From Crateriforma spongiae (GTDB taxonomy: Bacteria; Planctomycetota; Planctomycetia; Pirellulales; Pirellulaceae): a stretch of DNA of 64,000 bases. The DNA is taken from contig NZ_JAAXMS010000009.1 of assembly GCF_012290005.1 (NCBI RefSeq), positions 124,001-188,000 of the forward strand, written 5' to 3'. The first letter of the stretch is position 1; each line of letters opens with the position of its first letter. Positions 34,578 through 64,000 of this stretch are shown here, piece by piece. Below the pieces are notes generated by a model. It was not told where the DNA came from. It saw nothing but the letters and a program-made list of their open reading frames with translations, and did no database searches. Both the position numbers and the translations under genes were made by a program.

Positions 34578-35654
34578 ATGACCGCCGCGCTTTTGGATCC
34601 ACTTCACCTGTTGCCACCTCCGACGACGCAGCCCTGGGATGCGTTGCGGAACCAATCCCCATCGCGACGCATTCGTCGGGCCGATGGGTCCGTCGTCAAC
34701 ATGCCGCTTCCGCTGTTTTGGTATGCGCCCGATTGGTACCTGTATCCGCTGGAAGTCTCGCGACACTTGGCGGCGGCGGTTGCCCAAATGGGCGTATGCG
34801 TTGCCGCACTTCGCAGCGAGGTCGCCGGCGGCGATCATCCCTCGCCGCTGCATGACGAAGCGATGCCACGCTTGGTTCCCTATCGGCCCGAACGCTATGG
34901 ATTTCAGTGCACCGATTTTGATGACGCCCAGTTCGTCGATTTGCGACTGACATTGGTCCGTGAACCTTCCGGTCGATTCGCTTTCCCACCTGCCCAGGTT
35001 GCTCGCTGGGAATCGGATTCGGGCAAAGAAACCATCAGTGGTGGCGGTTGGGTGGAAGCCGCATCATTCCCGCCGGACGTGGCCGACTTGATGCATCTCG
35101 GATCCAAAATCGTCCAGATCCGTACGCTCAGCCCATCGGCCGCCGTGATGGTTTCGATCAATCCGATCGATTTGGACAACGAATTGCCCGCCATCTTGGA
35201 CGCCGATCCCGATGGCATCATTCTTCGTGCCGACCGGTTCCATCTGACCGGCATTCAGCTGGCGAAACTAATCCAAAAGACTCGCCGGATCATTGATGAC
35301 CGACACTCGGCAACGCTTCCGCTGTGGATCGTTCCCGGACCAATCACCGCGGACGATGCCGCAAAACTGATCGCCTTGGGGGCCAGCGCTGTGGCCATCG
35401 ATGCTTGGTGCCATCCGCTGCGTGAAGAAGACTTTCGCCCCCCTGCGTCGGCAGCGGCGCGGTTGGGATTCACCGACAACAAGACACCGTCGGCACAGTC
35501 ACATATTGATGCCATTGCCGCGACCCACCTTCGAGCTTCGATCGAACGTTTCACCGGTATGCTGCTGTCGACGCTGGACGGTTCGGTGTCCGAACGCCTG
35601 GGCACTTTCGACCAAGCATGGGCGGAAACGCTTGGCGTTCGCTTTCTGGGTTGA
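34578..35654 (+). CDS. divergent glutamate-synthase-like FMN-barrel protein
   Basis: The product has 358 residues. The second half resembles the glutamate synthase central/FMN domain: PPDVADLMHLGSKIVQIR then SAAVMVSINP, and a phosphate-binding strand-loop WIVPGPITADDAAKLIALGASAVAIDAW. It is shorter than the usual 440-500 residues. It has only three scattered Cys, so the 3Fe-4S cluster of GltB is missing. The conserved GYDGGTGAS loop is replaced by RADRFHLTG. FMN binding is plausible but the normal ammonia-transfer chemistry is doubtful. It is co-directional and 36 bases after the GXGXG gene, which suggests a two-subunit complex. It converges with nadE. Confidence 0.7.
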   Translation: MTAALLDPLHLLPPPTTQPWDALRNQSPSRRIRRADGSVVNMPLPLFWYAPDWYLYPLEVSRHLAAAVAQMGVCVAALRSEVAGGDHPSPLHDEAMPRLVPYRPERYGFQCTDFDDAQFVDLRLTLVREPSGRFAFPPAQVARWESDSGKETISGGGWVEAASFPPDVADLMHLGSKIVQIRTLSPSAAVMVSINPIDLDNELPAILDADPDGIILRADRFHLTGIQLAKLIQKTRRIIDDRHSATLPLWIVPGPITADDAAKLIALGASAVAIDAWCHPLREEDFRPPASAAARLGFTDNKTPSAQSHIDAIAATHLRASIERFTGMLLSTLDGSVSERLGTFDQAWAETLGVRFLG

Positions 35655-35682
35655 ATGATCCGTTCGCCCCGGCCCACGCCCC

Positions 35683-37701
35683 TTAGCCGGCCGACGAATC
35701 GCGAAAGTCACCACCATTGCCATCACTTGGCATCCGCCAATCGCCCCGTGGCGACAAGCTGACGCTGCCCACCTTGGGACCATCCGGAACACAATTCCGC
35801 TTGAACTGGTTGGCAAAGAACCGCCGCAAGAACGTGTCCAACACCGTGGCGATATGCTCCGGTGCATAGTCTTGGTCGAACCGCGCGTGACCGGCTAAAT
35901 GAAGGATCTTTTCCCGGCTGAAACCGTTACGAACGAAATGATAAAGGAAGAAATCGTGCAGCTCGTACGCACCGATGGACTGTTCGGTACTTTGCCGAAT
36001 CGTCCCATCCGCGGCCGGCGGTAACAATTCTGGGGAAATCGGTGTATCAGCGATCCGATGCAGCACCTTCCGCAGTTCACCTTCGAAATAATGATCGGCC
36101 GCATACCGGACCAAAAAGCGAACCAGGGTTTTGGGGATCGATGTATTGACGTTGTACATCGACATGTGATCGGCGTTGTAAGTGGACCAGCCGAGAGCCT
36201 GTTCGCTCATATCACCGGTCCCCAGCACGAAACCTCGGTTCATCAACAGCATCGTCCGCACGCGAGCCTGGACGTTTTCGAACACCAAATCCGTGGCGTC
36301 GTCCGGTGTCGCAATCAGTTCGTCTTGCAGTTGCTGCACCGTGGTGTTGTCATCAATCGCGATGCCCAAAGGCTGGTGACCGAGCGACAGAAACGTGTCC
36401 AAACAAAGCGGGCGGATGTCGATGGTTTCACCACGAATCCCGGTCAGGTCGATCAACCGATCGGCGCTGGTTTTGGTGTGAGTGGTCGTCCCAAACCCTG
36501 GCATGGTGATTCCACAAATCGTCTGCAGGGATCGCCCGGTCGACTGACACGCCCGCACCGCGACCAACAACGCCAAGGTGCTGTCCAGCCCACCGGAGAC
36601 CCCAATCGACAGCGTCGTGTCGTTGCCGATGCACGACAGACGTTTCGCCAGGCCGGCCGTTTGAATGGCAAAGATCTCGGCACACCGTGCGTCCAGTTCG
36701 GCGGATTCGTCCGGGACAAAGGGGTGAGCATCCACGCGACGCAGCAAATCGGTACGCTTCGTCAACGTCGAGGTCGGCAACGTGATGCGGCGATACGACT
36801 TTGGCAACTGAGGCAATAGGTCATCGAACGAACCGATCACCTGGCGATCATGTGCCAATCGCTGCAGGTCGACGTCGGCGACCGCAGTCGCTTCATCAAA
36901 AATCATCGGATCTCGTCCGTCACCGATGCGGCGCGACTCGGTCAGAACCGTGCCGTTTTCCGCAATCAGACAGTGTCCGCCGAAGACCAAGTCGGACGTC
37001 GATTCCAATCGCCCCGACGACGCATACGCATACGCCGCAATGCATCGCCCTGATTGGCTGGTCACCAGATCTCGCCGCCACGTTGCTTTCCCGATCGTTT
37101 CATTGCTGGCCGAAAGGTTCAGCAACACATTCGCACCGGCAACCGCGGCATGACTGGACGGAGGCACCGGAGTCCAAAAGTCCTCACAGATTTCGATCCC
37201 GATCACGGCGTCACGAATCTGAAATAACAGATCAGTGCCAAAGGGAATGTACCGTCCCGCCCACGACACATGATCCGGATCAGCATCGCCTGCCGGGCGA
37301 AAGTGTCGGCCCTCATAGAATTCCCGGTACGTCGGCAAATATGATTTGGGAACCATTCCCGCCAACTGGCCGTTCTGGATCACCGCGGCCACGTTCATCA
37401 ACGACCCGCCGACCCGCCACGGCAACCCCACCACCATCACGCGATGGTTGCCACTGCTGGATTCGATCAGACGCGAAAGCCCGTCGGCAGTTGCCCGCAA
37501 AAGATCGTCTTGCGCGAACAGGTCGCCACACGTGTATCCGGTCAGCGCCAGTTCGGGCAACAGAATCAAATCGGCATCGACCGAATGAATCAACGATTCG
37601 ATGGCGTCGACATTGGCCGACGGTTGTGCCACCGTGACTCGTGGGCTGGCGGCAGCGATTCGGAAGATACCGTGGGGAAAAGCTTCGTCAGATTCAATCA
37701 C
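35683..37701 (-). CDS. nadE: glutamine-dependent NAD+ synthetase
   Basis: Makes NAD+ from deamido-NAD+, ATP and glutamine in the cytoplasm. The 672-residue protein has an N-terminal nitrilase-type glutaminase with Glu50 (LLPELALTGY), Lys119 (PKSYLPTYREFYEGR) and Cys172 (GIEICEDFW). A synthetase domain follows with the PP-loop SGGLDSTLALLVAV. The STYNADHMSMYNVN and FFLYHFVRNG stretches are also typical. The start is a GTG at 37701 that overlaps the stop of the upstream TIM-barrel gene by four bases (GTGA), so the two are translationally coupled. Confidence 0.95.
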   Translation of the reverse strand: MIESDEAFPHGIFRIAAASPRVTVAQPSANVDAIESLIHSVDADLILLPELALTGYTCGDLFAQDDLLRATADGLSRLIESSSGNHRVMVVGLPWRVGGSLMNVAAVIQNGQLAGMVPKSYLPTYREFYEGRHFRPAGDADPDHVSWAGRYIPFGTDLLFQIRDAVIGIEICEDFWTPVPPSSHAAVAGANVLLNLSASNETIGKATWRRDLVTSQSGRCIAAYAYASSGRLESTSDLVFGGHCLIAENGTVLTESRRIGDGRDPMIFDEATAVADVDLQRLAHDRQVIGSFDDLLPQLPKSYRRITLPTSTLTKRTDLLRRVDAHPFVPDESAELDARCAEIFAIQTAGLAKRLSCIGNDTTLSIGVSGGLDSTLALLVAVRACQSTGRSLQTICGITMPGFGTTTHTKTSADRLIDLTGIRGETIDIRPLCLDTFLSLGHQPLGIAIDDNTTVQQLQDELIATPDDATDLVFENVQARVRTMLLMNRGFVLGTGDMSEQALGWSTYNADHMSMYNVNTSIPKTLVRFLVRYAADHYFEGELRKVLHRIADTPISPELLPPAADGTIRQSTEQSIGAYELHDFFLYHFVRNGFSREKILHLAGHARFDQDYAPEHIATVLDTFLRRFFANQFKRNCVPDGPKVGSVSLSPRGDWRMPSDGNGGDFRDSSAG

Positions 37702-40047: not shown

Positions 40048-40338
40048 TCAGGCGGCTTTTGCGGACACGCGTGCCATGGACACCGCCGGATGAGCCGACG
40101 TGTCGCCGTTGGGTTCCTCCGTTGGTGACCGAAATTCGGCCAAGATCTGATCCAGTTGCTCCAACTGGTCCGCCGCGGTCTGGGTCATGTCCAGAAACAG
40201 GATTCGTCGCCGGCCCAGTTGGCACCAATCGGCACCGCGTCCGTCCAATGGCTCGGTGCGGACATGAAAACCCATCTGTGTCGCGTCCTGAATGCGCCAT
40301 TTCAGTCGGCTGACGACGTGATCTTGAGTCGGTTTCAT
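40048..40338 (-). CDS. small conserved-looking protein of unknown function
   Basis: The product has 96 residues from the ATG at 40338. It has no signal peptide or membrane helix. The central segment GADWCQLGRRRILFLDMTQTAADQLEQLDQIL has the look of a short alpha/beta unit. I do not assign a family. It ends in AKAA, like its divergent neighbour's AAA and the glycosyltransferase cluster proteins. Its start lies 85 bases from that of the divergent histidine kinase, so the two may share control. The frame extends to 40461 but overlaps the kinase start. Confidence 0.6.
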   Translation of the reverse strand: MKPTQDHVVSRLKWRIQDATQMGFHVRTEPLDGRGADWCQLGRRRILFLDMTQTAADQLEQLDQILAEFRSPTEEPNGDTSAHPAVSMARVSAKAA

Positions 40339-40423
40339 GCGATTTCGTCCAAGGCGACGAAGACACCCCCGAATCAGTGCAAAATTTGCGGCATCGCGGG
40401 GGTCGAAACAGGGAATTGAAACG

Positions 40424-41341
40424 GTGTCCGTGGACTTGGCAAGCTTTGCCGCGCTGATCATCTGCGGTATAGCAGGTCTGACGATGTTGACGATAGATCG
40501 GATAAAGCGACTTCGCCTTCAACCGCTCGCACAGCCGATCCGGACACTTGGACTTATGCCCACCACGCCATCGCCGTCGTCCTCACCCGCCACTACGCAA
40601 CAACAACTGGAATTCTTGCAAGGACAGTTGCGCCAAAACCAAGCGTTGGCTGCGTTGGGGGCGCTGACCGGCACGGCGACGCATGAGTTCAACAATGTGC
40701 TGATGACGATCATCAACTATGCCAAGCTGGGGCTGCGCAACGAAGACACCGCCAGCCGCACCAAAGCACTGACGAAAATCTTGGAAGCGTCCGAACGCGC
40801 CGCGAAAATCACCGGGACGATCCTGGCACAGGCGCGGAACCGAAGCGATTCGCTGGAACCGACTAACCTGGTGGAAATCGTCGAAAGTTCCCTCGTGTTG
40901 TTGGAACGAGAGATGCGAAAGTATCGGATCGCCGTGGAAACTGATTTCGCCGACAACGCCCCCCGTGCCCAGGCCAGCGGGAATCAGATCCAGCGTGTCT
41001 TGCTGAACCTGTTGATCAATGCGCGGCAAGCGATGCCCGAAGGCGGCACGGTCTTGGTTCGCATCGCCCCCGGCGGGGAAGGTCGCTGTGTCGAATTAAC
41101 GGTGCGTGATTCGGGAACCGGGATCCCCGCGGACAAGTTGCCCAAGATCTTCGAACCATTTTTTACGACCAAATCCGGTCCCGATGATTCGGGCAAGGGT
41201 GGGACCGGGTTGGGCCTGGCGGCTTGCAAAGAAATCATCGACCGCCATGGCGGTCGCATCCGTGTCGAAAGCACCGTCGGCGTGGGCACCGCCTTCATCA
41301 TTCGATTGCCCATCGCCGGTGACCAACAAGCAGCCGCCTAG
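40424..41341 (+). CDS. sensor histidine kinase with one N-terminal membrane helix
   Basis: The product has 305 residues from the GTG at 40424, which follows AGGGA. A single hydrophobic helix (SFAALIICGIAGLTMLTI) is followed by a Pro/Ser linker. HisKA follows with the H-box ATHEFNNVLMTIINYAKLG, of the HEFNN subtype. The HATPase_c domain carries LLNLLINARQAMPEGG, VRDSGTGIP, FFTTKSGPDDSGKGGTGLGLAACKEII. There is no sensor domain of size, so input is probably via the membrane or a partner. No response regulator is adjacent. The C-terminus is QQAAA. Confidence 0.87.
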   Translation: MSVDLASFAALIICGIAGLTMLTIDRIKRLRLQPLAQPIRTLGLMPTTPSPSSSPATTQQQLEFLQGQLRQNQALAALGALTGTATHEFNNVLMTIINYAKLGLRNEDTASRTKALTKILEASERAAKITGTILAQARNRSDSLEPTNLVEIVESSLVLLEREMRKYRIAVETDFADNAPRAQASGNQIQRVLLNLLINARQAMPEGGTVLVRIAPGGEGRCVELTVRDSGTGIPADKLPKIFEPFFTTKSGPDDSGKGGTGLGLAACKEIIDRHGGRIRVESTVGVGTAFIIRLPIAGDQQAAA

Positions 41342-52618: not shown

Positions 52619-53431
52619 ATGGTCACCGTGGTCTGCACCCGCTGGCTGGACGCGTTTCCCGCTTCGTACGTTACTGTGCTACGCAACGCTGTGGCGGCCA
52701 GTCTGAAGCGTCCCCACCGTTTCGTCTGTGTGACGGACAACCCGGACGGGTTGGAAAACGGGGTGGAAGGCGTCGAGATGCCGGATCTGGGAATTCCGCT
52801 GCAATACCAACGTCGCGGGTGTTGGCCCAAGCTTTCGATCTTCACGCCGGGATTGCTTCCGGCCGACCAGCCGACGCTGTACTTGGATCTGGACGTGATG
52901 GTCCGCCAAGACCTGGATGCCTTTTTTGAACGCATCGAATCCACCGGCGGGTTTCACGCGCTGCGGGAATGGAACCCGACGATCTGGAGCATGGTTCCAC
53001 TGGCCATGCGACCGCACCGTGGCGTGCAGGGTTCAATCCTGGGCTTCTATCCCGGCGAACAAGCCAAACTGTTTCACAAGTTTTATGACCAGAAGGAACA
53101 CTGCTTCGAAGCGTTTCCGCTGGATCAGGATTTCCTGAGCGAAAACGCCCAGTCGCCTCAAGACTGGCCCTTCGCTTGGACCGCCAGCTTCAAGTGGCAC
53201 TGCTTGCACTATTACCCGATCAACCAAGTGCTGACAAAAATCCACGAGCCCAAGAACGCCAAAGTCGTCGTCTTCCACGGCAACCCGCGTCCGATCGATG
53301 TGGTGCCGCTGGGTGATTATCGCTGGGGCACCAAACGCAAGTTTGGTCACGGGCCGGTCGACTGGGTTCGCGAATACTGGCTGCGTCACGACCCGACCTG
53401 GACGGATGCGGCACCGGCCAAAGCGGCCTGA
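52619..53431 (+). CDS. glycosyltransferase-like protein, GT-A fold, first gene of the glycan cluster
   Basis: The product has 270 residues from the ATG at 52619, which follows GGAAGG. The N-terminus MVTVVCTRWLDAFPASY leads into a GT-A-like alpha/beta domain with LYLDLDVMV, a DxD-like metal-binding motif. The segment FHALREWNPTIWSMVPLAM and the tail FHGNPRPIDVVPLGD are reminiscent of GT8-related sugar transferases. No membrane segment is present. It stands before a perfect terminator and converges with the minus-strand glycosyltransferase set. Sugar and acceptor are unknown. It ends in AKAA, the Ala-Ala terminus shared by the cluster. Confidence 0.75.
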   Translation: MVTVVCTRWLDAFPASYVTVLRNAVAASLKRPHRFVCVTDNPDGLENGVEGVEMPDLGIPLQYQRRGCWPKLSIFTPGLLPADQPTLYLDLDVMVRQDLDAFFERIESTGGFHALREWNPTIWSMVPLAMRPHRGVQGSILGFYPGEQAKLFHKFYDQKEHCFEAFPLDQDFLSENAQSPQDWPFAWTASFKWHCLHYYPINQVLTKIHEPKNAKVVVFHGNPRPIDVVPLGDYRWGTKRKFGHGPVDWVREYWLRHDPTWTDAAPAKAA

Positions 53432-53467
53432 TCGACGCACGAGATAAACAAGACCAATCGCCCACAG

Positions 53468-53503
53468 GGTTGCCGAAGCGGTGCTTCGGCAACCTTTTCT
53501 TTT
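53468..53503 (+). terminator. rho-independent terminator after the first cluster glycosyltransferase
   Basis: A perfect 12-base-pair stem (GGTTGCCGAAGC with GCTTCGGCAACC) has a three-base GGT loop. It is followed by TTTTCTTTT on the plus strand. Only the stem could serve the minus-strand operon as well, since that side lacks a T tract. Confidence 0.9.
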
Positions 53504-53566
53504 GGCCTCACCGCATCGGCACACACACCCTCCGGTGCGACGAATGGAAACTGCGTCCGGTGCAAA

Positions 53567-54397
53567 CTAGGCGGCTGCGGCCGCCGAATCATCCACGATG
53601 CCCCAAGGCGTCCGGGTGCGACCAGATACCTTGGTCTGTTGCCGGATCCGATCGTTGTTTGCCCACATTTCCTTGGTCACATAACCACGATCGTGATCCA
53701 AATGCAAACAGATCGCGGTGTATCGGATCTGAATGCCTTTCATGCCGGCGTTGACCAAACGTTCGCCCAATTCGCGATCTTCGCCGCCGTATTGCATCCG
53801 AGTGTCAAATCCGTTGGCGGCGATCAAGTCTGATTTCCACGTACTGCTTTGCGCCCCGTTCCACGACGCCACGGTCGGCGTCATTCGGTTCATCAAACGA
53901 CCGATAGCGGCGGGGGCGGCGATGCGTGCGTTTTTCCAACGCAGGGGCTGTCCGGCGTCTCGCAAAAAACGGTGCGTGAACGCGCGGCCCGATTCAATGT
54001 CGGCTTGCCCGATCGCATGACTGACCGGCCGTGTCAATTTGAAGTATCCCGCCGACAGATAGTGCCCCGGTCTGGCCATCGATTTGTGCAATGCGACGAC
54101 ATCGCGACGCGGAACACAATCGCCATCGGTCAGCATCAAATAATCGCAATCGTTTTGTTCAATCGCACGATTCAGGATCTCAGTCTTCCGAAACCCGTCG
54201 TCGGTGTGCCAAACGTGGTGCAAGTTCAAGCGACCGCGTTGCCGAAAGTCATCTACCAACCGACGTGTTTCGGATCCCGATCCATCGTCGGCGATGATGG
54301 TGTCAAAGTCGCCGTCGGTTTGACATTCGTAGCCCCACAGAACCTTCTGAAGCCACTGTGGCGAATTGTAAGTGCTGATGATCACACCCATGCGCAT
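53567..54397 (-). CDS. family 2 glycosyltransferase
   Basis: The product has 276 residues. The GT2 fold opens with MRMGVIISTYNSPQWL. The nucleotide-binding Asp motif is IIADDGSGS, and the metal-binding DxD is LTDGDC. The catalytic-base region is YGGEDRELGERL, as in the galactosyltransferase C-terminal family. The last 30 residues are basic then acidic, ending in DDSAAAAA. The start at 54397 is two bases after the stop of the upstream GT4 gene, so it is co-translated. No membrane segment is present, so it is cytoplasmic or peripheral. Confidence 0.88.
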   Translation of the reverse strand: MRMGVIISTYNSPQWLQKVLWGYECQTDGDFDTIIADDGSGSETRRLVDDFRQRGRLNLHHVWHTDDGFRKTEILNRAIEQNDCDYLMLTDGDCVPRRDVVALHKSMARPGHYLSAGYFKLTRPVSHAIGQADIESGRAFTHRFLRDAGQPLRWKNARIAAPAAIGRLMNRMTPTVASWNGAQSSTWKSDLIAANGFDTRMQYGGEDRELGERLVNAGMKGIQIRYTAICLHLDHDRGYVTKEMWANNDRIRQQTKVSGRTRTPWGIVDDSAAAAA

Positions 54398-54399
54398 CG

Positions 54400-55461
54400 T
54401 CAGGCCGCCTTGTTCCAAAGGTTTTGATAGACCTCGCGGATTCGCTGGGATTCCAATTCCGCGCTGTAGTGATCTATGACACGCTGACGTCCCGCCTGGC
54501 CCATCGAAATTCGCAGCGTGTCATCATCCAGCAACCTCGCGATCGCCTGGGACAAACCATCGGCGTCACCACAGTCGACCAACAAGCCTGTCTTTTCGGG
54601 GACAACGATCTGCGGATACGCCCCGGTCATGCTGGCGACCACCGCCGCCTGACATGCCATGGCTTCCAACGGCACCAAGCCGAAGCCTTCATAGCGTGCG
54701 GGCGCCACGCACATCGAGATGCCCGACAACAAACGAGCCAAATCGTCGTGGCCCAATTGGTTCATCCAATAGACTTGATCCGTGACGCCTGCTTCATGAA
54801 TCCGCTTTTTCAAATCGTCTGCGAACTCGGCAAACTTTTGCGTTGCGGTCCCGACCAGACAAGCCGCGACGTCCCGGCGTTGCTGCAACACAGGAATCAT
54901 CGCTTCGACAAACAAGTCGGTGCCCTTTTCCGGACGAATGCGTCCGACGATGGCCGCGGCCTTTTGCTGTCGAATGCCGAAGGACCGTAACACCCCGGTG
55001 CGGTCATCGGCGGGACGAAATTTTTGACAATTCACGCCGTGCGGGATCACGGCGGCCACGTCGCGCAGATGGGACGCCGCTTCGTCGGTTGTCGCGATCC
55101 GAACATCGGCGGTCGAGATCAAAAAGCGTGGCACCGCCGAATGACGACGCTTGGCCGCGGACGTGAACACCACGCGGACGGGCCGACGCAAAATCTTGCG
55201 AAGAAGCAAACCCAACCACAATTCGATATTTCGACGGGCATGCAAGATCCGAAACGGCTTTTGAACCGGTCGACGCCAACACAACTGAATCGCCTGCCAC
55301 ATGCCGACGCGAGGGTACGGGCTTTCCCGCCCCGACAACACGGCCAAACGTTCTTTGTCTGCCATTTCGGGCAACATGGTCGCGATCGTCGCGCTGACAC
55401 CCGTGAATCGATGGTGCCAATCGCCGATGATCAGTTCGGTGTCTTCGACCTGATGGGTCAT
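54400..55461 (-). CDS. GT4-family glycosyltransferase
   Basis: The product has 353 residues with a GT-B double Rossmann fold. The N-terminal domain ends with FTSAAKRRHSAVPRFL and the inter-domain IPHGVN. The C-terminal domain has GRIRPEKGTDLFVEAM and the sugar-nucleotide Glu motif PARYEGFGLVPLEAMACQAAVVAS. It is cytoplasmic, without membrane helices. It lies between the GT11-like gene (29-base gap) and the GT2 gene, which starts 2 bases after it, within one minus-strand operon. It ends in NKAA. Confidence 0.88.
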   Translation of the reverse strand: MTHQVEDTELIIGDWHHRFTGVSATIATMLPEMADKERLAVLSGRESPYPRVGMWQAIQLCWRRPVQKPFRILHARRNIELWLGLLLRKILRRPVRVVFTSAAKRRHSAVPRFLISTADVRIATTDEAASHLRDVAAVIPHGVNCQKFRPADDRTGVLRSFGIRQQKAAAIVGRIRPEKGTDLFVEAMIPVLQQRRDVAACLVGTATQKFAEFADDLKKRIHEAGVTDQVYWMNQLGHDDLARLLSGISMCVAPARYEGFGLVPLEAMACQAAVVASMTGAYPQIVVPEKTGLLVDCGDADGLSQAIARLLDDDTLRISMGQAGRQRVIDHYSAELESQRIREVYQNLWNKAA

Positions 55462-55490
55462 GGTTGAAACCTGTAAACGCGATGAAAAGA

Positions 55491-56390
55491 TCAGGCGGCT
55501 GCGGTCGTGGGCGCAAAATCCACGTCGCCGGAGACACGAAATTCGTTCCGACCGATGTGCCGGTCGTGCGGATGCAGCACTCGCAGCGGCACGTCGCCAT
55601 ACATCGACGCCCAGCCCGAAAAAGAACTGGGCGGGCCGATCAGATAGTCACATCCGGCCAAGCTGTACATGTCCACGACGGGGCTGCCACGATTGATCGT
55701 GACGTCCACATCGGGAAAGTCGTCCGCCGACAGCTTGCCGTCGCTGCACACCAGAAAACGAACACGCTGGCCGGGAAATTGATTCGCCAGATCACGCATC
55801 CAAGCGTGGTACCGAGCGACGGGGTAAAACCAATCGCCGTTCATGAACTTTTGATAATCGGTCTGCCGGATGTGCGTCCCGATCAGCACGTCGCATCCGT
55901 CTCGAGCGACCTGCAATGAAGCGTCGATTTGACGCCGATAGATTTCAATGGGCCGAAAGAAGTCGCGGATCACGTTGATATGACGCCGGACCAGATTCGG
56001 ACAGCGGAAACGATAACCGCGGACGACCAAGTTGCCTTCGCGAACACGACGTAAGAAGTCGTCGGATTCCAGATCGCAGTCTTTCGTCAAATCGATCGAA
56101 TGGATCCGCAATGGCCACCGAACCATGCCGGTGTCATTCAGTGACGCCAAAACGACATGCAGCCCGCGATAGGAAACGTTTCGCACCCATGGCGCGGGAA
56201 CCATCGACGCCGGTTTGGCGGGAAAGCGACACGCCAATCCGCTGCGATAAGTCCCTTCGAATAGATGGGCGTACTCGAAGAACGCCGGATTGGCCAACGG
56301 GCAATCGTGCTGCACCGAAAAGGCGATGAAGTGGGCGAACAGATTCAGCCCGTTCCCCAGCCGGCCGGGTCGTTTACCGATCAGAATCAT
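55491..56390 (-). CDS. GT11-like glycosyltransferase (alpha-1,2-fucosyltransferase superfamily)
   Basis: The product has 299 residues. The N-terminus is GRLGNGLNLFAHFIAFS, matching the G-R-L-G-N opening of family 11 fucosyltransferases. The HxRxxD motif appears as IGTHIRQTDYQKF. The late conserved stretch is DMYSLAGCDYLIGPPSSFSGW, matching the family pattern in which the cell recognises C-D-Y-x-I and S-S-F-S. A GDP-sugar donor is likely. It ends in TTAAA. It is the first gene of the three-gene minus-strand group that continues to 53567. Confidence 0.8.
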   Translation of the reverse strand: MILIGKRPGRLGNGLNLFAHFIAFSVQHDCPLANPAFFEYAHLFEGTYRSGLACRFPAKPASMVPAPWVRNVSYRGLHVVLASLNDTGMVRWPLRIHSIDLTKDCDLESDDFLRRVREGNLVVRGYRFRCPNLVRRHINVIRDFFRPIEIYRRQIDASLQVARDGCDVLIGTHIRQTDYQKFMNGDWFYPVARYHAWMRDLANQFPGQRVRFLVCSDGKLSADDFPDVDVTINRGSPVVDMYSLAGCDYLIGPPSSFSGWASMYGDVPLRVLHPHDRHIGRNEFRVSGDVDFAPTTAAA

Positions 56391-56620
56391 GCCAATGCGT
56401 AGCCAAGACTAACAGGAGGGTTGGTGGATCGAAGGATTGGGGGCGTGAAACATGCGATAGCAAAATCTCGCCGGCAACGTCAATCGCGATCCCAATTCCA
56501 GCTTGCTAGCATCACCCCTTGCGCTATCCACCGCGGCTCCGCCGCCCTGACTCGCATCGCCTTGTCCGGCGATTCGATGACCTGTCACCCGCGTCCTAGC
56601 GACCCGCGCCGCGCATCGGA
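56391..56620. other. 230-bp gap between glycosyltransferase genes
   Basis: No ORF, hairpin or repeat stands out. It separates two co-directional glycosyltransferase genes and may carry a promoter for the group 55491-53567. Confidence 0.4.
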
Positions 56621-57676
56621 TCAGGCGGCACGTCGCTGTGGCCGCTCGTCCCCAGAGCGATTCGCCTGGGTCCTGGCCGGCTTTGCAATTCCTGGCGGTA
56701 CGGACGGGTCGGCCGACAACGGGTCGGCCGATCCGACGGGCTGAATGACCGCATCGGGATCCGTCTTGGGGGCGCGGACCTGTTGGGCATAGTGGATTGA
56801 CATCAACAGGTACTGTTCCAGTCGCACATGCAGAGGCACTCGTGCGCGGGAGGACATCTTGGCATAGCTGACCAATTCCCGCAGCGTCGGCTTTTCGATC
56901 GTGCGAAACTCTCTGGGCAACAGGTACCCCAACGACGGCACGTCGTACCCCATGCGATCGATGTAGTGGGCGATCAATCGATTCAGCTTCAGCGCGTGAA
57001 CCAGTTTTTGAGCGGCGTCGAATCGTTTCCGCGCATGGTGATTCTGGTCGTGAATCCGATAGTTCACCAGCGGCATGTCCAAGTGATACTTGTGACCGCC
57101 GGCCAAGGAAGCACCGAACACCAAGACGTCGTCGGCACGAGTCACCCAGTCGTCTTCGTGCGGATAGGGCAGGATCTTTCGCAACAAATCCGTCTTCATT
57201 GACAAACAGGATGTCGGGTTGCCGATCCACGACCGGTTGAAGACGGATGCGAGTGCACTTAGCCCTCGATCGCGGGTCGGTTTCACACGACGTTTCACAT
57301 TGCGGACGTTTCCGATTTCACGGAAGCCGACGCTTAAAAAGTTGACGTCGGGGCGTTGCCGATAGATGGCTCCACATCGATCGACCAGATCGGGATCAAA
57401 GATGTCGTCGGCGTCCAGAAAGAACACAACATCGCCCGTGATCAGCGGACAACCGTGATGAAAGCAAGACAGCTGCCCCGCCTGTCGCTTGCCCAAAATC
57501 TCGACCGTCCCCTGACCGGCAAACTCGCGTCTCAGGGCTTCCAGGGACCCGTCGGTCGATCCGTCGTCGACCACGATAATCTCGTGGAACGGGATCGTCT
57601 GCTCCAGGGCACTCCGCACCGCCTGTCCGACATAACGAACGTAGTTGTGGCTGTTGATCAGACAGCTGGCTCTCAT
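56621..57676 (-). CDS. family 2 glycosyltransferase, paralogue A
   Basis: The product has 351 residues. The GT2 signature is IIVVDDGSTDGSLEALR and VFFLDADDIFDPDL, with GNPTSCLSM and TRADDVLVFGAS further on. The Asp of RADDVLV replaces the usual ED motif. A basic, proline-rich tail ends in RPQRRAA. It is clearly paralogous to the gene at 58865, sharing the same motifs in the same order. A GGGGAG site precedes the start by 9 bases. It is cytoplasmic and without membrane helices. Confidence 0.87.
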   Translation of the reverse strand: MRASCLINSHNYVRYVGQAVRSALEQTIPFHEIIVVDDGSTDGSLEALRREFAGQGTVEILGKRQAGQLSCFHHGCPLITGDVVFFLDADDIFDPDLVDRCGAIYRQRPDVNFLSVGFREIGNVRNVKRRVKPTRDRGLSALASVFNRSWIGNPTSCLSMKTDLLRKILPYPHEDDWVTRADDVLVFGASLAGGHKYHLDMPLVNYRIHDQNHHARKRFDAAQKLVHALKLNRLIAHYIDRMGYDVPSLGYLLPREFRTIEKPTLRELVSYAKMSSRARVPLHVRLEQYLLMSIHYAQQVRAPKTDPDAVIQPVGSADPLSADPSVPPGIAKPARTQANRSGDERPQRRAA

Positions 57677-57908
57677 GCTTCGAAGCTCCCCTCGCGGCGT
57701 CGGACCACCCCGCCGGCTGGCTGCCGTCGACGCGGAAGGTCTTCCAGAGACGTTCCGGCGTCACAGCCATCGATCGACAAGGCTTTCCAAACCGGTATCG
57801 CCGGAACGGCCAAGAAACTTCAGCAGAATCCCCATCTTTGGGGTGAACCGGAAGCGAATATGGGCCATGCGTGCAAGTTTTGCACGGCCGCAAAAAAGCC
57901 CGAAAACA

Positions 57909-58859
57909 TTATGCGGCGCGGCGTTGGGCGGGCCAGCGAACCAAACGTTTGCCGGTACGTCGCAGATGACGCCAATAGGAACGCTGCTGCAACAGAACAG
58001 GATGTCCCGTGGCCAATTTTGCCAACTTCCGAAACTTGATCGTCGCACTTTCCTCACGCTGCAGAATCATGGCCCGTTCCATCGCGTTGAGCGCGATCAT
58101 ACGTTCCCGATCCTGAGAATCGATCCGCGGATCGGGACGCTGTAAATACGGGTCGACAATCGCCATCAGTTCCAATCGGGTCTGATCGATCTGCGATGTT
58201 TTTTGGGCACCGTGGATGCGAAATGCCGACAGCGGTTGATCGATATGGTGAATCCGCATGCCGGCGTCAAAGCCGCGAAGCCAGTAGTCGAAATCCATCG
58301 CATAGTGTCGCGACTCGTCAAATCCGCCCAGTTGCCGGGACAGTCGTCGCGTCCAAAAAACTTCGGGCTGGACGAAGTTGCGATTGTCGAAATAGCGGAG
58401 CCAATGCTGCCAAAGATCCAGCATTTCCGCAAAGCTTGTGATGGTGGCGGTTTGCGGACGAATCAATTCCCCCGCTTCGTCGACATGATGGCAGGTGCCG
58501 AAGATGAAATCACGCCGTGGATCGGCTTCCCAAGCATCCACGACCGCTTCGAAAGCACCGGGCAGGTAATAATCGTCGCTGTTGATGTACGCCAACAGAT
58601 CGCCGTCACAACGCTGGAACCCCTTGTTGATCGCGTGCGTTTGTCCACGATCCGGTTCACTGCACCAACCGGCAAGTTCGCTTTCGTACCGGCCAATGAC
58701 ATCGACGGTGTGGTCAGTGCTGCCGCCATCAATGACGAAGTACTGCAAGTCGAACCGGCTGCCGCGTCCGGCCTGGGACAAAACGCTGCGAATGGTTTGT
58801 TCCAGAAATTCTGCCTGATTGAACGACGGCGTCACGATGCTGATCAAGGGCCGCTTCAT
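57909..58859 (-). CDS. family 2 glycosyltransferase
   Basis: The product has 316 residues from the ATG at 58859, 5 bases after the upstream glycosyltransferase stop. Motifs are LISIVTPSFNQAEFLEQTI, FVIDGGSTDHTVDVI, DLLAYINSDDYYLPGAFEAV and the acceptor-side RHYAMDFDYWLRGF. This subfamily typically adds sugars to lipid- or O-antigen-like acceptors. The frame extends to 59189, but that part overlaps the upstream gene. It ends in RRAA, with a TAA stop. A 232-base gap follows before the next gene. Confidence 0.88.
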   Translation of the reverse strand: MKRPLISIVTPSFNQAEFLEQTIRSVLSQAGRGSRFDLQYFVIDGGSTDHTVDVIGRYESELAGWCSEPDRGQTHAINKGFQRCDGDLLAYINSDDYYLPGAFEAVVDAWEADPRRDFIFGTCHHVDEAGELIRPQTATITSFAEMLDLWQHWLRYFDNRNFVQPEVFWTRRLSRQLGGFDESRHYAMDFDYWLRGFDAGMRIHHIDQPLSAFRIHGAQKTSQIDQTRLELMAIVDPYLQRPDPRIDSQDRERMIALNAMERAMILQREESATIKFRKLAKLATGHPVLLQQRSYWRHLRRTGKRLVRWPAQRRAA

Positions 58860-58864
58860 GGATC

Positions 58865-59875
58865 TCAGGCCGCCTTGACGTTCGATTGGGAAGTGCCTGT
58901 CGCGTTTGCGTGGCGAGGTGCTTCGGTCACCGCCAAGTCGGGTTCGACCGCCGGCGGTGTGGCTTTGCGACGCCGATATTCTTTGGCGTAATGCAACACC
59001 ATGTTCAGGGCGTAATCCAAGCGTGTGGACCAGGGCAGGCGACCGCGGCCCAGCATCCGCAGGTAGCTCCGCAGTTCTTTTGAAGACGGACGTTCGCAGG
59101 TGCGGAACTCTCGATGCAGCAGGTACGCGATGCTGTCGCGATTCACCCTCGCGGCACGCAAGTACCAATTCACCATTCGTTCCACGCAAAGGGCGTATCG
59201 CATTTTTCCGACCGCATCCAGTCGCTTTCCGGCAAAGTGATTGCGGTCATGAATGCGATATTCGACCAGCGGCAATTCCAGGTGATACTTGTCGGCCCCC
59301 ATGATGGACGACCCCAGCACCAAAACGTCATCGGCACGCGTCTGCCAATCCGATTCGTCGGGATAGGGCAGTACTTTTTGGGCCATCGTTCGGCGCATCG
59401 ACAGACACGACGTCGGGTTTCCGATCCAACAGCGATGCAGGGCCGCCGATGCAACACTGATGCCACGTCGACGAGATCCCGATGCGGGCGGATGCCAGCC
59501 TTCGATCGCACCAAACCGCCGGTACCCCGTACTGACGAAACCGATTTCGGGCCGCCGCCGATACAGATCCGTCACCCGCTGCAGCATTTCCGGGGCATAG
59601 CGATCGTCGGCGTCCAAAAAGAACAACAAATCGCCTCGAGATTCGGCCAATCCGACGTGAAAACACGACAGCTGACCGGCCTGAGGTTTGGCAATCAAAC
59701 GCACCTTGGCATGGCCGCCATAGTCCTTACGGATGCGATCCACTGAACCATCCGATGATCCGTCGTCGACCACGATCACTTCGTTAAACGGTTTCGACTG
59801 TGCCAGCGCACTATCGATCGCTTCACCGACATAGTCGACGTAGTTGTGGCAGTTGATCAGACAGGAGGAACGCAT
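58865..59875 (-). CDS. family 2 glycosyltransferase, paralogue B
   Basis: The product has 336 residues from the ATG at 59875. Its motif order copies paralogue A at 56621: SSCLINCHNYVDYVGEAI against its ASCLINSHNYVRYVGQAV, then VVDDGSSDGS, LLFFLDADDRYAPEM, GNPTSCLSM and TRADDVLVLGSSI. The pair is therefore a tandem-type duplication with another GT2 gene between them. The tail ends in SNVKAA. No strong ribosome-binding site is seen. Confidence 0.87.
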   Translation of the reverse strand: MRSSCLINCHNYVDYVGEAIDSALAQSKPFNEVIVVDDGSSDGSVDRIRKDYGGHAKVRLIAKPQAGQLSCFHVGLAESRGDLLFFLDADDRYAPEMLQRVTDLYRRRPEIGFVSTGYRRFGAIEGWHPPASGSRRRGISVASAALHRCWIGNPTSCLSMRRTMAQKVLPYPDESDWQTRADDVLVLGSSIMGADKYHLELPLVEYRIHDRNHFAGKRLDAVGKMRYALCVERMVNWYLRAARVNRDSIAYLLHREFRTCERPSSKELRSYLRMLGRGRLPWSTRLDYALNMVLHYAKEYRRRKATPPAVEPDLAVTEAPRHANATGTSQSNVKAA

Positions 59876-60242
59876 GAATCGGCTCGAAAGGATGTGTGGG
59901 CCGACGATGCTGTCGACCAACGGATTTCCTGTTCGCACGCGACCCTATCGAATTTCCACCGTCGGTGGCCAGAGTGTTTTTTGGCCCCCTGAGGTGCATC
60001 GCCGCGACAGAGGGCGCATCGTCGCGACAGAACGATCGCGGGCGACTCAGATGCAAGCGTGAGCTGATCACCTGCCCGCAACATCATCTGCCCGCGACGA
60101 AATCGCCCGCCCATCAAACGACGTTGACTTCGGTCGGCGGGTCCCCCTATGGATGTTGTCGGTGTGCGGAAAGCTCCGCTGCCAACTTCGCAACGTTCCC
60201 GGCTGTCCGCCGTCGAAGCGCCCTGAAGGGAGTCGCTAACTC
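59876..60242. other. 367-bp intergenic region between divergent glycosyltransferase groups
   Basis: It separates the minus-strand group (59875 downward) from the plus-strand gene at 60243. It likely holds the promoters for both directions of the cluster. I see no RNA gene, terminator or reliable small ORF. Confidence 0.45.
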
Positions 60243-61439
60243 GTGTCACGACTAAAAATTTTGGCGGTCATCCCCCATTTGATCCGGCCCAGCGAAGTTT
60301 GGATGTATCGCCAATTGCAGGTCTTTCGCCACCAAGATTTGCACATCATTGCCGGGCATCGACATCGGCACGAACAATTCGATCTGACCGGGATCCCGAT
60401 CACAACGGTGCCCGAATCGATGAACAGCCCGCTGCGTGGATTACGCCGGCATTGGGACCGGATTCGATTTCCCGGCATGCAAGGCACACGATACGGTCAG
60501 CATCAACGGCAATGGTTTCGGGAACAGGTCTGCCGCATTCGACCGGATGCCATTCATTGCCAATACGGAACGGTGGGGCTTTCAACGCTGGACGCTGTCG
60601 CCGGACTGAACATCCCTGTCTTTGTCCAATTCAACGGCGACGGACTATCTTGTTTAGTCCATCGACGACGCGGACGCGAACGAATGGTGCGGTCCATCGG
60701 CAACTTTGCGGGATTGATCACGGTTGCCCGATATCAACAACAATGGCTGCTGCGTCGCGGGGCCACCCCCGAACATGTCGCCTTGATTCCTTATGGCGCA
60801 CCTTTAGAACCCGACGCGACGTCGATTCGTCCCCAACGATCGAACTGTCAGTTTCTGGCGGTCGGTCGTTTGTGCGAAATGAAGTCGCCGCTGAACTTGA
60901 TCCGTGCTTTTGCTTTATGCCAAAGCCTGCACCCGGCCAGCCGATTGACCATCATCGGCGATGGACCAATGCGTGGTGAGACCGAAAACCTCATTCAGCG
61001 TCTGGGTTTGAAAGATCACGTCACGTTGCAGGGCGTCCAACCGGCCGAGGTCGTTCGACGCCAGATGTTGCAAGCGGACGTGTTTGTTCAGCACAGTGTG
61101 ACGGCAGCCAACGGAATGATGGAAGGATGGCCCGTCGCCATCGGCGAAGCAATGTCACGCGGATTGCCGGTCGTCGCCACACGACATGCGGGGATTTGCG
61201 AACAAGTGACCCAAGACGTCAATGGATATCTGTGCGACGAATTCGATTGGTCGGACATGGGACGCTGTATGGCCGACCTGGCCGGCAATGCGATGAAACG
61301 CCAGACCTTCGGACGCCAAGCCCTGCGTCTGTCGCTGGATGCTCGCGTCCAAACGCACACTCAGCTGGACTTCATCCGCAAACGTCTGGGTGTCTCCCGT
61401 CAATCCCAGCGTCCATCCACACTACAACAAGCGGCGTGA
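60243..61439 (+). CDS. GT4-family glycosyltransferase
   Basis: The product has 398 residues. The start is a GTG at 60243 (MSRLKILAVIPHLIRPSEVW). The GT-B fold is shown by VAGLNIPVFVQFNGDG, the linker CQFLAVGRLCEMKSPLNLIRAF, and the C-terminal donor site with GMMEGWPVAIGEAMSRGLPVVAT. The Glu of EGWPVAIGEA is the nucleotide-sugar-contacting residue of this family. It has no membrane segment. It ends in TLQQAA, and the next gene starts 16 bases later on the same strand. Confidence 0.9.
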   Translation: MSRLKILAVIPHLIRPSEVWMYRQLQVFRHQDLHIIAGHRHRHEQFDLTGIPITTVPESMNSPLRGLRRHWDRIRFPGMQGTRYGQHQRQWFREQVCRIRPDAIHCQYGTVGLSTLDAVAGLNIPVFVQFNGDGLSCLVHRRRGRERMVRSIGNFAGLITVARYQQQWLLRRGATPEHVALIPYGAPLEPDATSIRPQRSNCQFLAVGRLCEMKSPLNLIRAFALCQSLHPASRLTIIGDGPMRGETENLIQRLGLKDHVTLQGVQPAEVVRRQMLQADVFVQHSVTAANGMMEGWPVAIGEAMSRGLPVVATRHAGICEQVTQDVNGYLCDEFDWSDMGRCMADLAGNAMKRQTFGRQALRLSLDARVQTHTQLDFIRKRLGVSRQSQRPSTLQQAA

Positions 61440-61455
61440 CCCCAGGATCTGACAC

Positions 61456-62364
61456 GTGCACACGATCATTTTGCCGTATTACTGTGAAGAGGAAGTCGAA
61501 CGTTACACGTCGATCCTCCGTCACATGCAGTCTTTTGGGCCTTCGCGGGTGGAATTTCGCTTCCTGTTGGCGGCCAGTCCAAAGACGTCCGCCAGCGATC
61601 GCTTGTACAAAGCGGCATCAGCCGTTGCTCCGGTGCAACACTTTGAATGCCCTAGCCAAGTCTTTGGTTATCCCGAAGGTCCCTCCGCAATGTTCTGGGA
61701 CTGCATGGACCATCTTGCAAAGCAGGCCGGTGACGGATTCGCCCTGTGGCTGGAATCGGACATGTGCCCGGTCCGTCCCGACTGGGTCGAACGGTTGGAC
61801 TCGCAATGGCGACAGTGTGGCGACGTCTTGGTGATGGGCACAGTCATTCCACACACCAATCGCCTGATCCGAAAAACTCGCTGGACCTGGCGGGGGCGTC
61901 GGCACCATCACGTTCATGTGCCCTGGATCGGCCAACACGTCAACGGCGGCGCCTGTTATCGAAACGATCTGGTTCGCCATATGCCCGACGATCATCGTGA
62001 AGGAATTTTTGACACCCGACTTGGCCAGATTCTGGCAACCACCGGTGGCTATGCCGACACGCCCAGCATCCGCCTGACCACCGAGCAGCGGCTTGCGATG
62101 GACCTTGAAGACCCCAATGTCGTTTTGGTGCACGGATACTTGCAAGCCAAGGACCCGTTCATCGATTGGTGCACCGGCCGAAAACCGATCCCGAGACCAT
62201 CGGCGGCGCCAGACGGTCCCGACACCATTCGACGAACCGTCGATTCGTGCCCCAGGCGTCTTCACTTGGATGCGACGTTTGCCATCAAAGATCGCACGCC
62301 CGCGGTGCTGACGGTCTATCACCGCAACGCTTCGATGCCCCATCCACAGTCTCAAGCCGCGTAG
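61456..62364 (+). CDS. putative glycosyltransferase-like protein, GT-A-like
   Basis: The product has 302 residues. The start is a GTG 16 bases after the GT4 gene. The GT-A-like pattern is suggested by HTIILPYYCEEEVERYTSI and the acidic motif LWLESDMCPVRPDW, resembling a DxD site. NGGACYRNDLVRH and GIFDTRLGQILAT follow. It is not confidently placed in a family. The end is HPQSQAA. Its position inside the cluster supports a role in glycan transfer. Confidence 0.65.
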   Translation: MHTIILPYYCEEEVERYTSILRHMQSFGPSRVEFRFLLAASPKTSASDRLYKAASAVAPVQHFECPSQVFGYPEGPSAMFWDCMDHLAKQAGDGFALWLESDMCPVRPDWVERLDSQWRQCGDVLVMGTVIPHTNRLIRKTRWTWRGRRHHHVHVPWIGQHVNGGACYRNDLVRHMPDDHREGIFDTRLGQILATTGGYADTPSIRLTTEQRLAMDLEDPNVVLVHGYLQAKDPFIDWCTGRKPIPRPSAAPDGPDTIRRTVDSCPRRLHLDATFAIKDRTPAVLTVYHRNASMPHPQSQAA

Positions 62365-62562: not shown

Positions 62563-64000
62563 ATGCCCCGCCGCTCACGCCGTCAGAGTTTCCGTCCAGG
62601 AAGCGGTCCGTCCCGCTGGTCCCTCGCCTCTTTGGAACCACGATTGATGTTGGCCGCCGACGCGGGCGTCGCCGCTGCGGCACCAATCTCCGGCTCAGTA
62701 GCCGTGGAAACAGTGGCCAACAAAGTCGACGCGACGTCGCGAAGTAGCTGCGAACACCTCGTGTTGATCGATAGCGAGATCACCGATCTTTCCCAATGGG
62801 AATCGGCGCTGCCCGAGACGGCTGAGATAGCTGTGCTGCAACCGGGCGCAGATCCGATTGATCAGATCAGCCAAATTCTTTCCCAACGCCGCGACATCCG
62901 ATCGCTGCATGTCATTAGCCATGGAAGTGTCGGACAAGTTCGATTGGCCGGCCAGTCCATCGATCAACAGACCCTCACGATCCAGCAAGAACAGATTCGC
63001 CACTGGCGTTCTGCGTTTGCGAACGATGCCGACCTGTTGCTTTACGGATGCGACGTGGCTGGTGGACCCGAAGGGAAATCGTTCGCGCGGATGCTGTCAC
63101 GGTTGGCCGGTGTCGATGTCGCAGCTTCCGACGATGCGACAGGCAACACGAGCGAGAATTTGGCGGCGGCCGATTGGGACCTCGAGTTCACCGTCGGCGA
63201 CGTTCGTTTTGCCACCTTGTTGAACCGACAGGCGTTGTCCGGAATCCGCGAGCACCTTGGGATCGAAATTTGGGCCGCCGGCGAAACCACCGATGAACTG
63301 ATGGAACTGGAGATCGATGGTCAAGTCGTCGACAGTTGGTTCGTCCGGGACACCAACGCCAATGACGGCACCTTCCTGCCGTACTACTACAACGTTGACG
63401 GAATTTCACCCGATCAAATTCGAATCAACTTTGTTAACGACTTCTATGATCCCGCCTCGGGAACCGACCGCAACTTACGTGTCGACAAAATCGTGGTTGA
63501 CGGGATCACTTACGAGACCGAAGCCCCCAGTGTTTATTCGACGGGGACTTGGCAGCCTGACACCGGCGTGACGCCCGGCAATCGACAAAGCGAGTACCTG
63601 ACGAATAACGGGTATTTCCAATTCGCGTCCGACGGTGGCGGCACGTCCACGATCACCACGATTGAAATCGACGCCTTCGGTGAAACAGGCGACGAAGCGA
63701 TGCAGTTGATTGTCAAAGACGAAGTCGTTTGGACGTACTTGAACGTGCCGACCGGCGGCACCACTTACAGCTACGACTATTACGGTGATGTCACGCCCGG
63801 CGACGTTCGTGTGGCCTTCATCGGTGCAGTCTATCAGCCCGAATTTGGCTATGACCAGAACTTACGAGTTGATCGCATTCGCATCGACGGTGAATCATTC
63901 GAATCAGAATCGGCATCCACTTACAGCACTGGCACCTACGTCAACGGCCAGGGAATCATTCCCGGCAACTGGCGCAGCGACATCCTTCATGACAACGGCT
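62563..64000 (+). CDS. N-terminal part of a giant exported surface protein with LEPR motif, DUF4347 and xylan-binding-like modules
   Basis: The frame opens at ATG 62563 and stays open to the window end, giving 479 codons of an incomplete protein. A basic start (MPRRSRRQSF) leads to LEPRLMLAAD at residues 24-33, the LEPR motif of planctomycete exported proteins. DUF4347 runs from about residue 65 to 230, with HVISHGS (His120) and LYGCDVAGG (Cys163). Two modules follow at about 234-325 and 360-460. Their signature DRNLRVDKIVVDGITYE and DQNLRVDRIRIDGESFE resembles calcium-dependent xylan-binding domains. There is no canonical signal peptide; the LEPR region probably replaces it. It is 198 bases downstream of the glycosyltransferase cluster. 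Confidence 0.88.
   Translation, partial: MPRRSRRQSFRPGSGPSRWSLASLEPRLMLAADAGVAAAAPISGSVAVETVANKVDATSRSSCEHLVLIDSEITDLSQWESALPETAEIAVLQPGADPIDQISQILSQRRDIRSLHVISHGSVGQVRLAGQSIDQQTLTIQQEQIRHWRSAFANDADLLLYGCDVAGGPEGKSFARMLSRLAGVDVAASDDATGNTSENLAAADWDLEFTVGDVRFATLLNRQALSGIREHLGIEIWAAGETTDELMELEIDGQVVDSWFVRDTNANDGTFLPYYYNVDGISPDQIRINFVNDFYDPASGTDRNLRVDKIVVDGITYETEAPSVYSTGTWQPDTGVTPGNRQSEYLTNNGYFQFASDGGGTSTITTIEIDAFGETGDEAMQLIVKDEVVWTYLNVPTGGTTYSYDYYGDVTPGDVRVAFIGAVYQPEFGYDQNLRVDRIRIDGESFESESASTYSTGTYVNGQGIIPGNWRSDILHDNG

Follow-up and report, generated by a model that had tools for sequence, protein, structure and literature searches.

Why do all nine proteins of a glycosyltransferase cluster in Crateriforma spongiae, encoded between positions 52619 and 62364 of the window analyzed here, end in the same two residues, Ala-Ala? 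The window is a stretch of 64,000 nucleotides which corresponds to positions 124001 to 188000 of contig C9 in a genome of 6.87 Mb and 48 contigs. A first, sequence-only reading had reported the nine Ala-Ala ends, and when we re-read the tails from the DNA as encoded C termini, all nine were as stated. According to our analysis, this Ala-Ala tagging is real, strongly nonrandom, conserved within the family, and larger than first noted, since the full locus comprises 19 genes, from 176619 to 199229 of C9, of which 14 carry the tail. Five of the tagged genes lie beyond the window (C9 191325 to 199229) and encode GT2, GT8, RfbH, RfbG, and RfbF homologues, the three Rfb assignments passing the NCBIfam cut-offs. 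The claim that every cluster gene is tagged therefore stands for the nine genes of the window but not for the full locus, where five of the 19 lack the tail, namely, those encoding a 1,189-residue protein, a sulfotransferase with a KSA end, and a plus-strand trio of consecutive genes for a GT2, an RmlC-like protein, and an epimerase.

The excess was evaluated in 1.51 Mb of the genome, made up of contigs C9 and C1 together with 100 kb from contig C2, in which a home-made Markov gene finder, with a coverage of about 83 to 84% of the C. spongiae contigs, called 1,012 genes. Ala-Ala C termini are found on 31 of them, nine being those of the window's cluster; the locus accounts for 14 of 19 genes versus 17 of 993 elsewhere in the sample (Fisher test, 2e-19), which excludes a similar Ala-Ala frequency everywhere. 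The run of nine out of nine gives a Fisher value of 1e-15, and the longest run in 5,000 shuffles of the gene order was four, so that chance is ruled out as its origin. Outside the locus, the 17 ends observed compare with 14.4 expected from Ala frequencies, meaning that Ala-Ala is not avoided. The Ala codons of the 14 tails match genome usage (P = 0.55) and form seven different codon pairs followed by all three stop codons, which rules out a DNA motif as the cause; since the codon choice is ordinary, selection acts at the protein level, as had been proposed. The accompanying argument, that the nine proteins have unrelated folds and that shared ancestry offers no explanation, is correct about the folds, but the genes at 56621 to 57676 and 58865 to 59875 are paralogous (50% identity over 312 residues), and the nine are hence not all independent.

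Whether the tail follows the enzyme family or the locus can be seen from the GT2 and GT4 Pfam matches of the whole genome (57 in total, 28 to PF00535 and 29 to PF13692), among which Ala-Ala occurs on seven of eight at the locus and on only one of 49 elsewhere. This rules out the tail as a general feature of glycosyltransferases and does not bear out, as worded, the earlier suggestion that it is common to the glycan machinery; it is a property of particular loci, not of glycosyltransferases as a class. The RfbH of C9 and a second RfbH of the same genome, at 1089445 of contig C2 and 77% identical to it, are a natural experiment inside one genome: the C9 copy ends in RRRPLRQTAA, whereas its paralogue ends in TTGSTVANA and the neighbours of the latter, RfbG- and RfbF-like by sequence, end in NSVG and VNVG. 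The genome holds two RfbF-RfbG-RfbH-like sets in all, one with Ala-Ala tails (C9 195792 to 197321) and one untagged (C2 1089445 to 1090917). The RfbF and RfbG names used for the C2 operon and for relatives were given by sequence resemblance and position, not by family search.

Conservation was followed mainly in homologues of the protein encoded at 52619. From family genomes, 21 of 28 matches outside C. spongiae itself were translated (L159, L166, and L161 to L165, being fragments, weak, or interrupted by a stop, were set aside), and 19 of the 21, at 28 to 97% identity, end in Ala-Ala, with preceding tails that vary in length and sequence and with different Ala codons. In some of them Ala-Ala follows the last conserved Trp by as little as two residues (YWNDAA) or by five (YWRAIDEAA). 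A scan of named genomes returned 80 homologues, of which three, each carrying the label Pirellula or Planctomycetales, end in Ala-Ala; the remaining planctomycete rows, four out of seven, end in QAVL, QVA, HWK, and ANS, and the tail is absent from all 73 homologues that come from other phyla or unclassified bacteria, which rules it out as a universal trait of this protein family. In many of the nonplanctomycete homologues the chain stops directly behind the final conserved helix (PTPWIADNWK); those from rhizobia extend further and have other endings. Likewise, none of 17 GT2 or GT4 proteins near nonplanctomycete homologues (75 loci, including the two planctomycete rows L242 and L254) ends in Ala-Ala. 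The GT2 protein encoded at 56621 is less strict: among its 11 best loci outside the C. spongiae genome, four end in Ala-Ala, two in Ser-Ala or Thr-Ala, and five in neither. The proposed check by orthologues is thus borne out by the first protein and only partly by the second. The sister genome G011 retains all 14 tags; a single synonymous change falls within the Ala-Ala codons (gene 60243), and others precede them.

Among 38 regions of relatives, of which one set was chosen around homologues of the 52619 and 56621 proteins after the tails had been seen and the other mostly by GT2 similarity, Ala-Ala is present on 57 of 138 proteins matching GT2, GT4, GT8, or locus queries. Tagged regions reach 11 of 13 (G011), 5 of 6, 3 of 4 twice, and 3 of 3. 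Eleven regions have no tail at all (0 of 8 in G028 and G072; 0 of 7 in G137; 0 of 6 in G006, G036, and G082; 0 of 4 in G129b and G173b; 0 of 3 in G198b, G157, and G140), which rules out Ala-Ala as a general feature of glycosyltransferase clusters in the family. Several regions of low guanine-plus-cytosine content in relatives were called only to 30 to 49%, and genes are therefore missed there.

Beyond glycosyltransferases, the tail is carried by nucleotide-sugar enzymes and by a methyltransferase; two relatives also have it on an ATP-binding cassette (ABC) exporter. The RfbH-type operons of G195, G106, and G048 (6 of 6, 5 of 6, and 4 of 7 proteins with Ala-Ala) contain RfbH, RfbF- and RfbG-like proteins, epimerases, a HAD phosphatase, and an HldE-like kinase/cytidylyltransferase; the tagged operon of G198 contains a methyltransferase, a cytidylyltransferase, and the ABC exporter, that of G004 an ABC exporter, and that of G165 also GT11, GT25, and an epimerase. 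RfbH itself, found in 11 of 294 genomes of the wider phylum, C. spongiae included, was read at 18 of its 20 places in the family (all except L343 and L344) and ends in Ala-Ala in five rows, those of C. spongiae, G011, G195, G106, and G048, each time within a tagged operon. Around the three untagged RfbH genes whose neighbourhoods were fetched, on C2 and in G059 and G194, there was no Ala-Ala among the called genes, at coverages of 50%, 34%, and 41%. A third kind of glycan cluster, in genus g36, is tagged on three to four of six proteins. In this cluster (L305, L309, L310, L311, L312, and L318) Ala-Ala is found on several GT4 proteins and a hexapeptide protein, some orthologues end in GVS or KAG, and the G178 copy includes an O-antigen ligase and an acyltransferase.

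The residues that precede Ala-Ala were examined in nine tagged loci (74 genes, 55 with Ala-Ala), some of whose proteins are possibly orthologous to each other. Lys or Arg occupies position -3 in 30 of the 55 tails (Arg in 20 and Lys in 10; background, 11%) and position -4 in 28 (background, 13%), and, counted from the printed tails, 17 of the 55 are basic at both. The two positions are poor in acidic and hydrophobic residues, the hydrophobic share at -3 being 5% versus a background of 29%. In the members of tagged loci lacking Ala-Ala the last residue is still Ala in 10 of 19 cases, as opposed to 91 of 976 in the background. The tag is therefore an Ala-Ala-carboxylate end whose last Ala hardly varies and which tends to follow basic residues. 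Among the other 476 called genes of the relatives we counted 56 Ala-Ala ends and 16 matches to the pattern [KR][KRH][AVP][AIS], many of them from tagged loci outside the 74. That pattern was drawn by us from the second class of C-terminal ClpXP motifs (C-motif-2) in an excerpt of PMC9775585, and it is present at the C termini of 18 of the 74 locus proteins versus four of the 993 background proteins of C. spongiae.

Which reader could such a tail have? Our preferred, though still tentative, reading is that it is a pathway-wide ClpXP-type C-terminal degron predicted on most enzymes of one surface-glycan pathway; the sequence-only reading was right about the kind of answer, a degron or C-terminal tag. 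ClpX would bind the Ala-Ala tails of the pathway enzymes, degradation would be conditional and probably gated, and the whole pathway might be removed together, for instance at one cell cycle stage, in starvation, or on shutdown of the operon. In favour of this reading we count the excess at the locus, the Ala-Ala ends kept behind drifting tails, the tagging operon by operon, and the basic residues and terminal Ala that prevail in tagged loci. The C. spongiae ClpX was aligned to PDB 8e91_A, which we take to be E. coli ClpX, with residue numbers counted by hand, and residues Y153, V154, T199, V202, R228, and H230 are all identical. These are the residues that read the Ala-Ala-carboxylate, the most important element of the ssrA tag for ClpXP and the main ClpX contact, according to an excerpt of PMC7652416. 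The transfer-messenger RNA (tmRNA) tag of C. spongiae is ADESFALAA, and the genome has two adjacent matches to CLP_protease (PF00574). In the AlphaFold2 model of the 52619 protein the tail is disordered, the last ten residues averaging a predicted local distance difference test (pLDDT) score of 63 and the last three falling below 50.

By their sequences the tails look like a blend of the two C-terminal motif classes that the excerpt of PMC9775585 lists for E. coli ClpXP, C-motif-1 (LAA, NAA, PAA, and EAA) and C-motif-2 (RRKKAI, RAKKVA, HIKKAS, RVKHPA, and HARKVA). With the ssrA-like C-motif-1 they share an Ala-Ala end with a free carboxylate, but basic residues at -3 and -4 are common here, and the tag, encoded in each gene, marks a whole locus instead of being added by tmRNA or standing on scattered proteins. 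The Leu at -3 of ssrA is not matched, although other C-motif-1 members listed by the same source (NAA, PAA, and EAA) do without it. With the MuA-like C-motif-2 some of them share basic residues followed by a small residue and Ala, the two-basic pattern described above being enriched but not general, and one DegT tail of relative G165, HIRKVA, is close to the HARKVA listed there for E. coli PaaA; the differences are that the last residue is almost always Ala here, that both basic residues are found in part of the tails only, and that most members of an operon are tagged.

Several points weigh against a ClpXP degron. The ClpX contact residues are widely conserved, so that their presence is a weak test. 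Ala-Ala ends elsewhere in the proteome are not depleted and occur also on ribosomal protein L5 and a sigma-70-like protein (named by eye), which indicates that Ala-Ala alone is no strong degron here. Position -3 is basic rather than Leu, and the basic pair is confined to the minority of tails given above; in the C. spongiae locus the [KR][KRH][AVP][AIS] pattern is present on only four of 19 proteins. Because the nine loci were picked for carrying Ala-Ala, only the other positions count as independent evidence. The tails that place Ala-Ala two to five residues past the last conserved Trp are perhaps too short to serve as degrons, GFP-LAA being reported not to be degraded in the excerpt of PMC7652416. 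A search for the adaptor SspB gave no match, and an ungated degron would be a wasteful thing to put on metabolic enzymes.

The main rival, which we regard as possible but rather doubtful, is a docking or assembly tag, whereby a carboxylate-binding partner, such as a scaffold, a membrane anchor, or an exporter-associated protein, would gather the enzymes of one pathway through their basic-Ala-Ala ends. Tagging by operon of successive pathway enzymes, extending to nucleotide-sugar enzymes and the exporters of G198 and G004, fits a common assembly site, and so does the lack of avoidance of Ala-Ala elsewhere. However, no candidate reader was found, the untagged genes of the C. spongiae locus include steps that probably belong to the same pathway (the RmlC-like protein and the epimerase), and Ala-Ala is kept on 52619 homologues which have no other glycosyltransferase match in the fetched 20 kb (G055, G046, G076, G111a, and G013).

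A degron recognized by a protease other than ClpXP (FtsH, one of the ClpA/ClpC type, or a tail-specific one), or one that needs an unknown adaptor, seems unlikely. The SspB result would agree with it, and an excerpt of PMC9356133 describes a parallel in an envelope glycolipid pathway, the control of E. coli lipopolysaccharide synthesis through FtsH degradation of LpxC; there the target is the committed-step enzyme, whereas here most enzymes of the locus would be targets of a presumed proteolysis. The tails resemble the listed ClpXP C-motifs, however, and the FtsH motifs in the same table of the PMC9775585 excerpt are N-terminal.

Far less probable is a bacterial counterpart of the dilysine KKxx retrieval signal of eukaryotes, for which membrane-coat-like proteins with beta-propellers would serve as readers. 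KKxx likewise depends on basic residues at both -3 and -4 and on a free carboxylate (excerpt of PMC3521961), and coat-like proteins were counted in Blastopirellula marina and Rhodopirellula baltica (excerpt of PMC2799638). Nevertheless, COPI rejects Arg according to the former source, and Arg is the commoner residue here; moreover, the last two residues are fixed as Ala-Ala here and free in KKxx, which is carried by transmembrane cargo, unlike most of the tagged proteins, which look soluble. The PEP-CTERM sorting signal, in which a transmembrane helix precedes a basic C-terminal end, was rejected on residue composition, as no position from -3 to -8 shows an excess of hydrophobic residues. A DNA-level or historical cause (3' ends shared by duplication or gene conversion, a stop-proximal DNA element, or chance), to which the one paralogous pair among the nine could be credited, is scarcely tenable and is refuted as the main cause by the codon, stop, and fold diversity and by the Ala-Ala ends kept with other codons in distant homologues.

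A wider formulation is conceivable and perhaps somewhat short of probable: Ala-Ala-carboxylate, preferably after Lys or Arg, may be a lineage-specific address on most enzymes recruited to certain Pirellulaceae glycan operons, gained repeatedly by unrelated folds and read by a dedicated reader, either an adaptor-gated protease or a carboxylate-binding scaffold, that would treat the pathway as a unit. To our knowledge, bacterial degrons have been described one protein at a time. In the titles and abstract openings that our searches of open-licence PMC articles listed, we found no description of a pathway-wide or planctomycete C-terminal Ala-Ala tag. Here, one short C-terminal tag is shared by a large part of a pathway, starting at nucleotide-sugar synthesis and reaching glycosyl transfer, plus export in two relatives, and its presence on homologous enzymes varies with the operon that houses them. 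If it is a degron, it would amount to pathway-level proteolytic control visible from sequence, by which a whole pathway could be switched off at once; if it is a docking tag, it would point to a novel code by which glycan machines are assembled. In both cases it may predict which genes work together.

As for the individual genes of the window, 52619 to 53431 on the plus strand encodes a protein with tail APAKAA and no Pfam match, whose AlphaFold2 model (pLDDT, 91) has a GT8-like GT-A fold. Its best Foldseek matches are LgtC and glycogenin, which we take to be GT8 enzymes (template modeling score of about 0.6; 12 to 17% identity), and it is probably a GT8-like glycosyltransferase on the basis of this model. 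Six genes follow on the minus strand: a GT2 glycosyltransferase at 53567 to 54418 (PF00535, 7e-12; PF02709, 6e-6; tail DDSAAAAA); a GT4 enzyme at 54400 to 55461 (PF00534, 2e-34; LWNKAA); a GT11-like enzyme at 55491 to 56390, whose PF01531 match (3e-5) is exactly at the cut-off (PTTAAA); and three GT2 enzymes, at 56621 to 57676 (PF00535, 1e-19; PQRRAA), at 57909 to 58859 (PF00535, 1e-22; AQRRAA), with the start likely at 58859 and not 59189, and at 58865 to 59875 (PF00535, 1e-22 when read from 59938; SNVKAA), where the start at 59875 is that of our gene caller. On the plus strand, 60243 to 61439 encodes a GT4 glycosyltransferase (PF00534, 8e-30; TLQQAA) and 61456 to 62364 a protein without Pfam or NCBIfam match (PQSQAA). 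The gene for the 1,189-residue protein (plus strand, C9 186761 to 190330) has its 5' part in the window, at 62761 to 64000; the protein ends in RWEIA and contains DUF4347, two CBM60 stretches, Calx-beta, legume lectin, and GSDH domains, and at a guess it could be a surface protein to which the glycan is attached or which acts as its receptor. The sulfotransferase of the locus ends in PLTKSA, close to the PTTKSA end of the C. spongiae ClpX (L351).

Outside the glycan locus, the only other Ala-Ala ends among the called genes of the window are those of the divergent pair at 40048 and 40616 to 41341, as had been reported. This pair, at 40048 to 40461 on the minus strand and 40337 to 41341 on the plus strand, consists of a HisKA/HATPase kinase and a small protein that matched no Pfam family, both ending in Ala-Ala in G011 too. 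On contig C1, Ala-Ala is further found on a lipid A acyltransferase-like protein (35530 to 36483; end TQAA), a PAP2 protein (960676 to 961677; DKRAA), and the sigma-70-like protein mentioned above (599546 to 601225; LKTAA).

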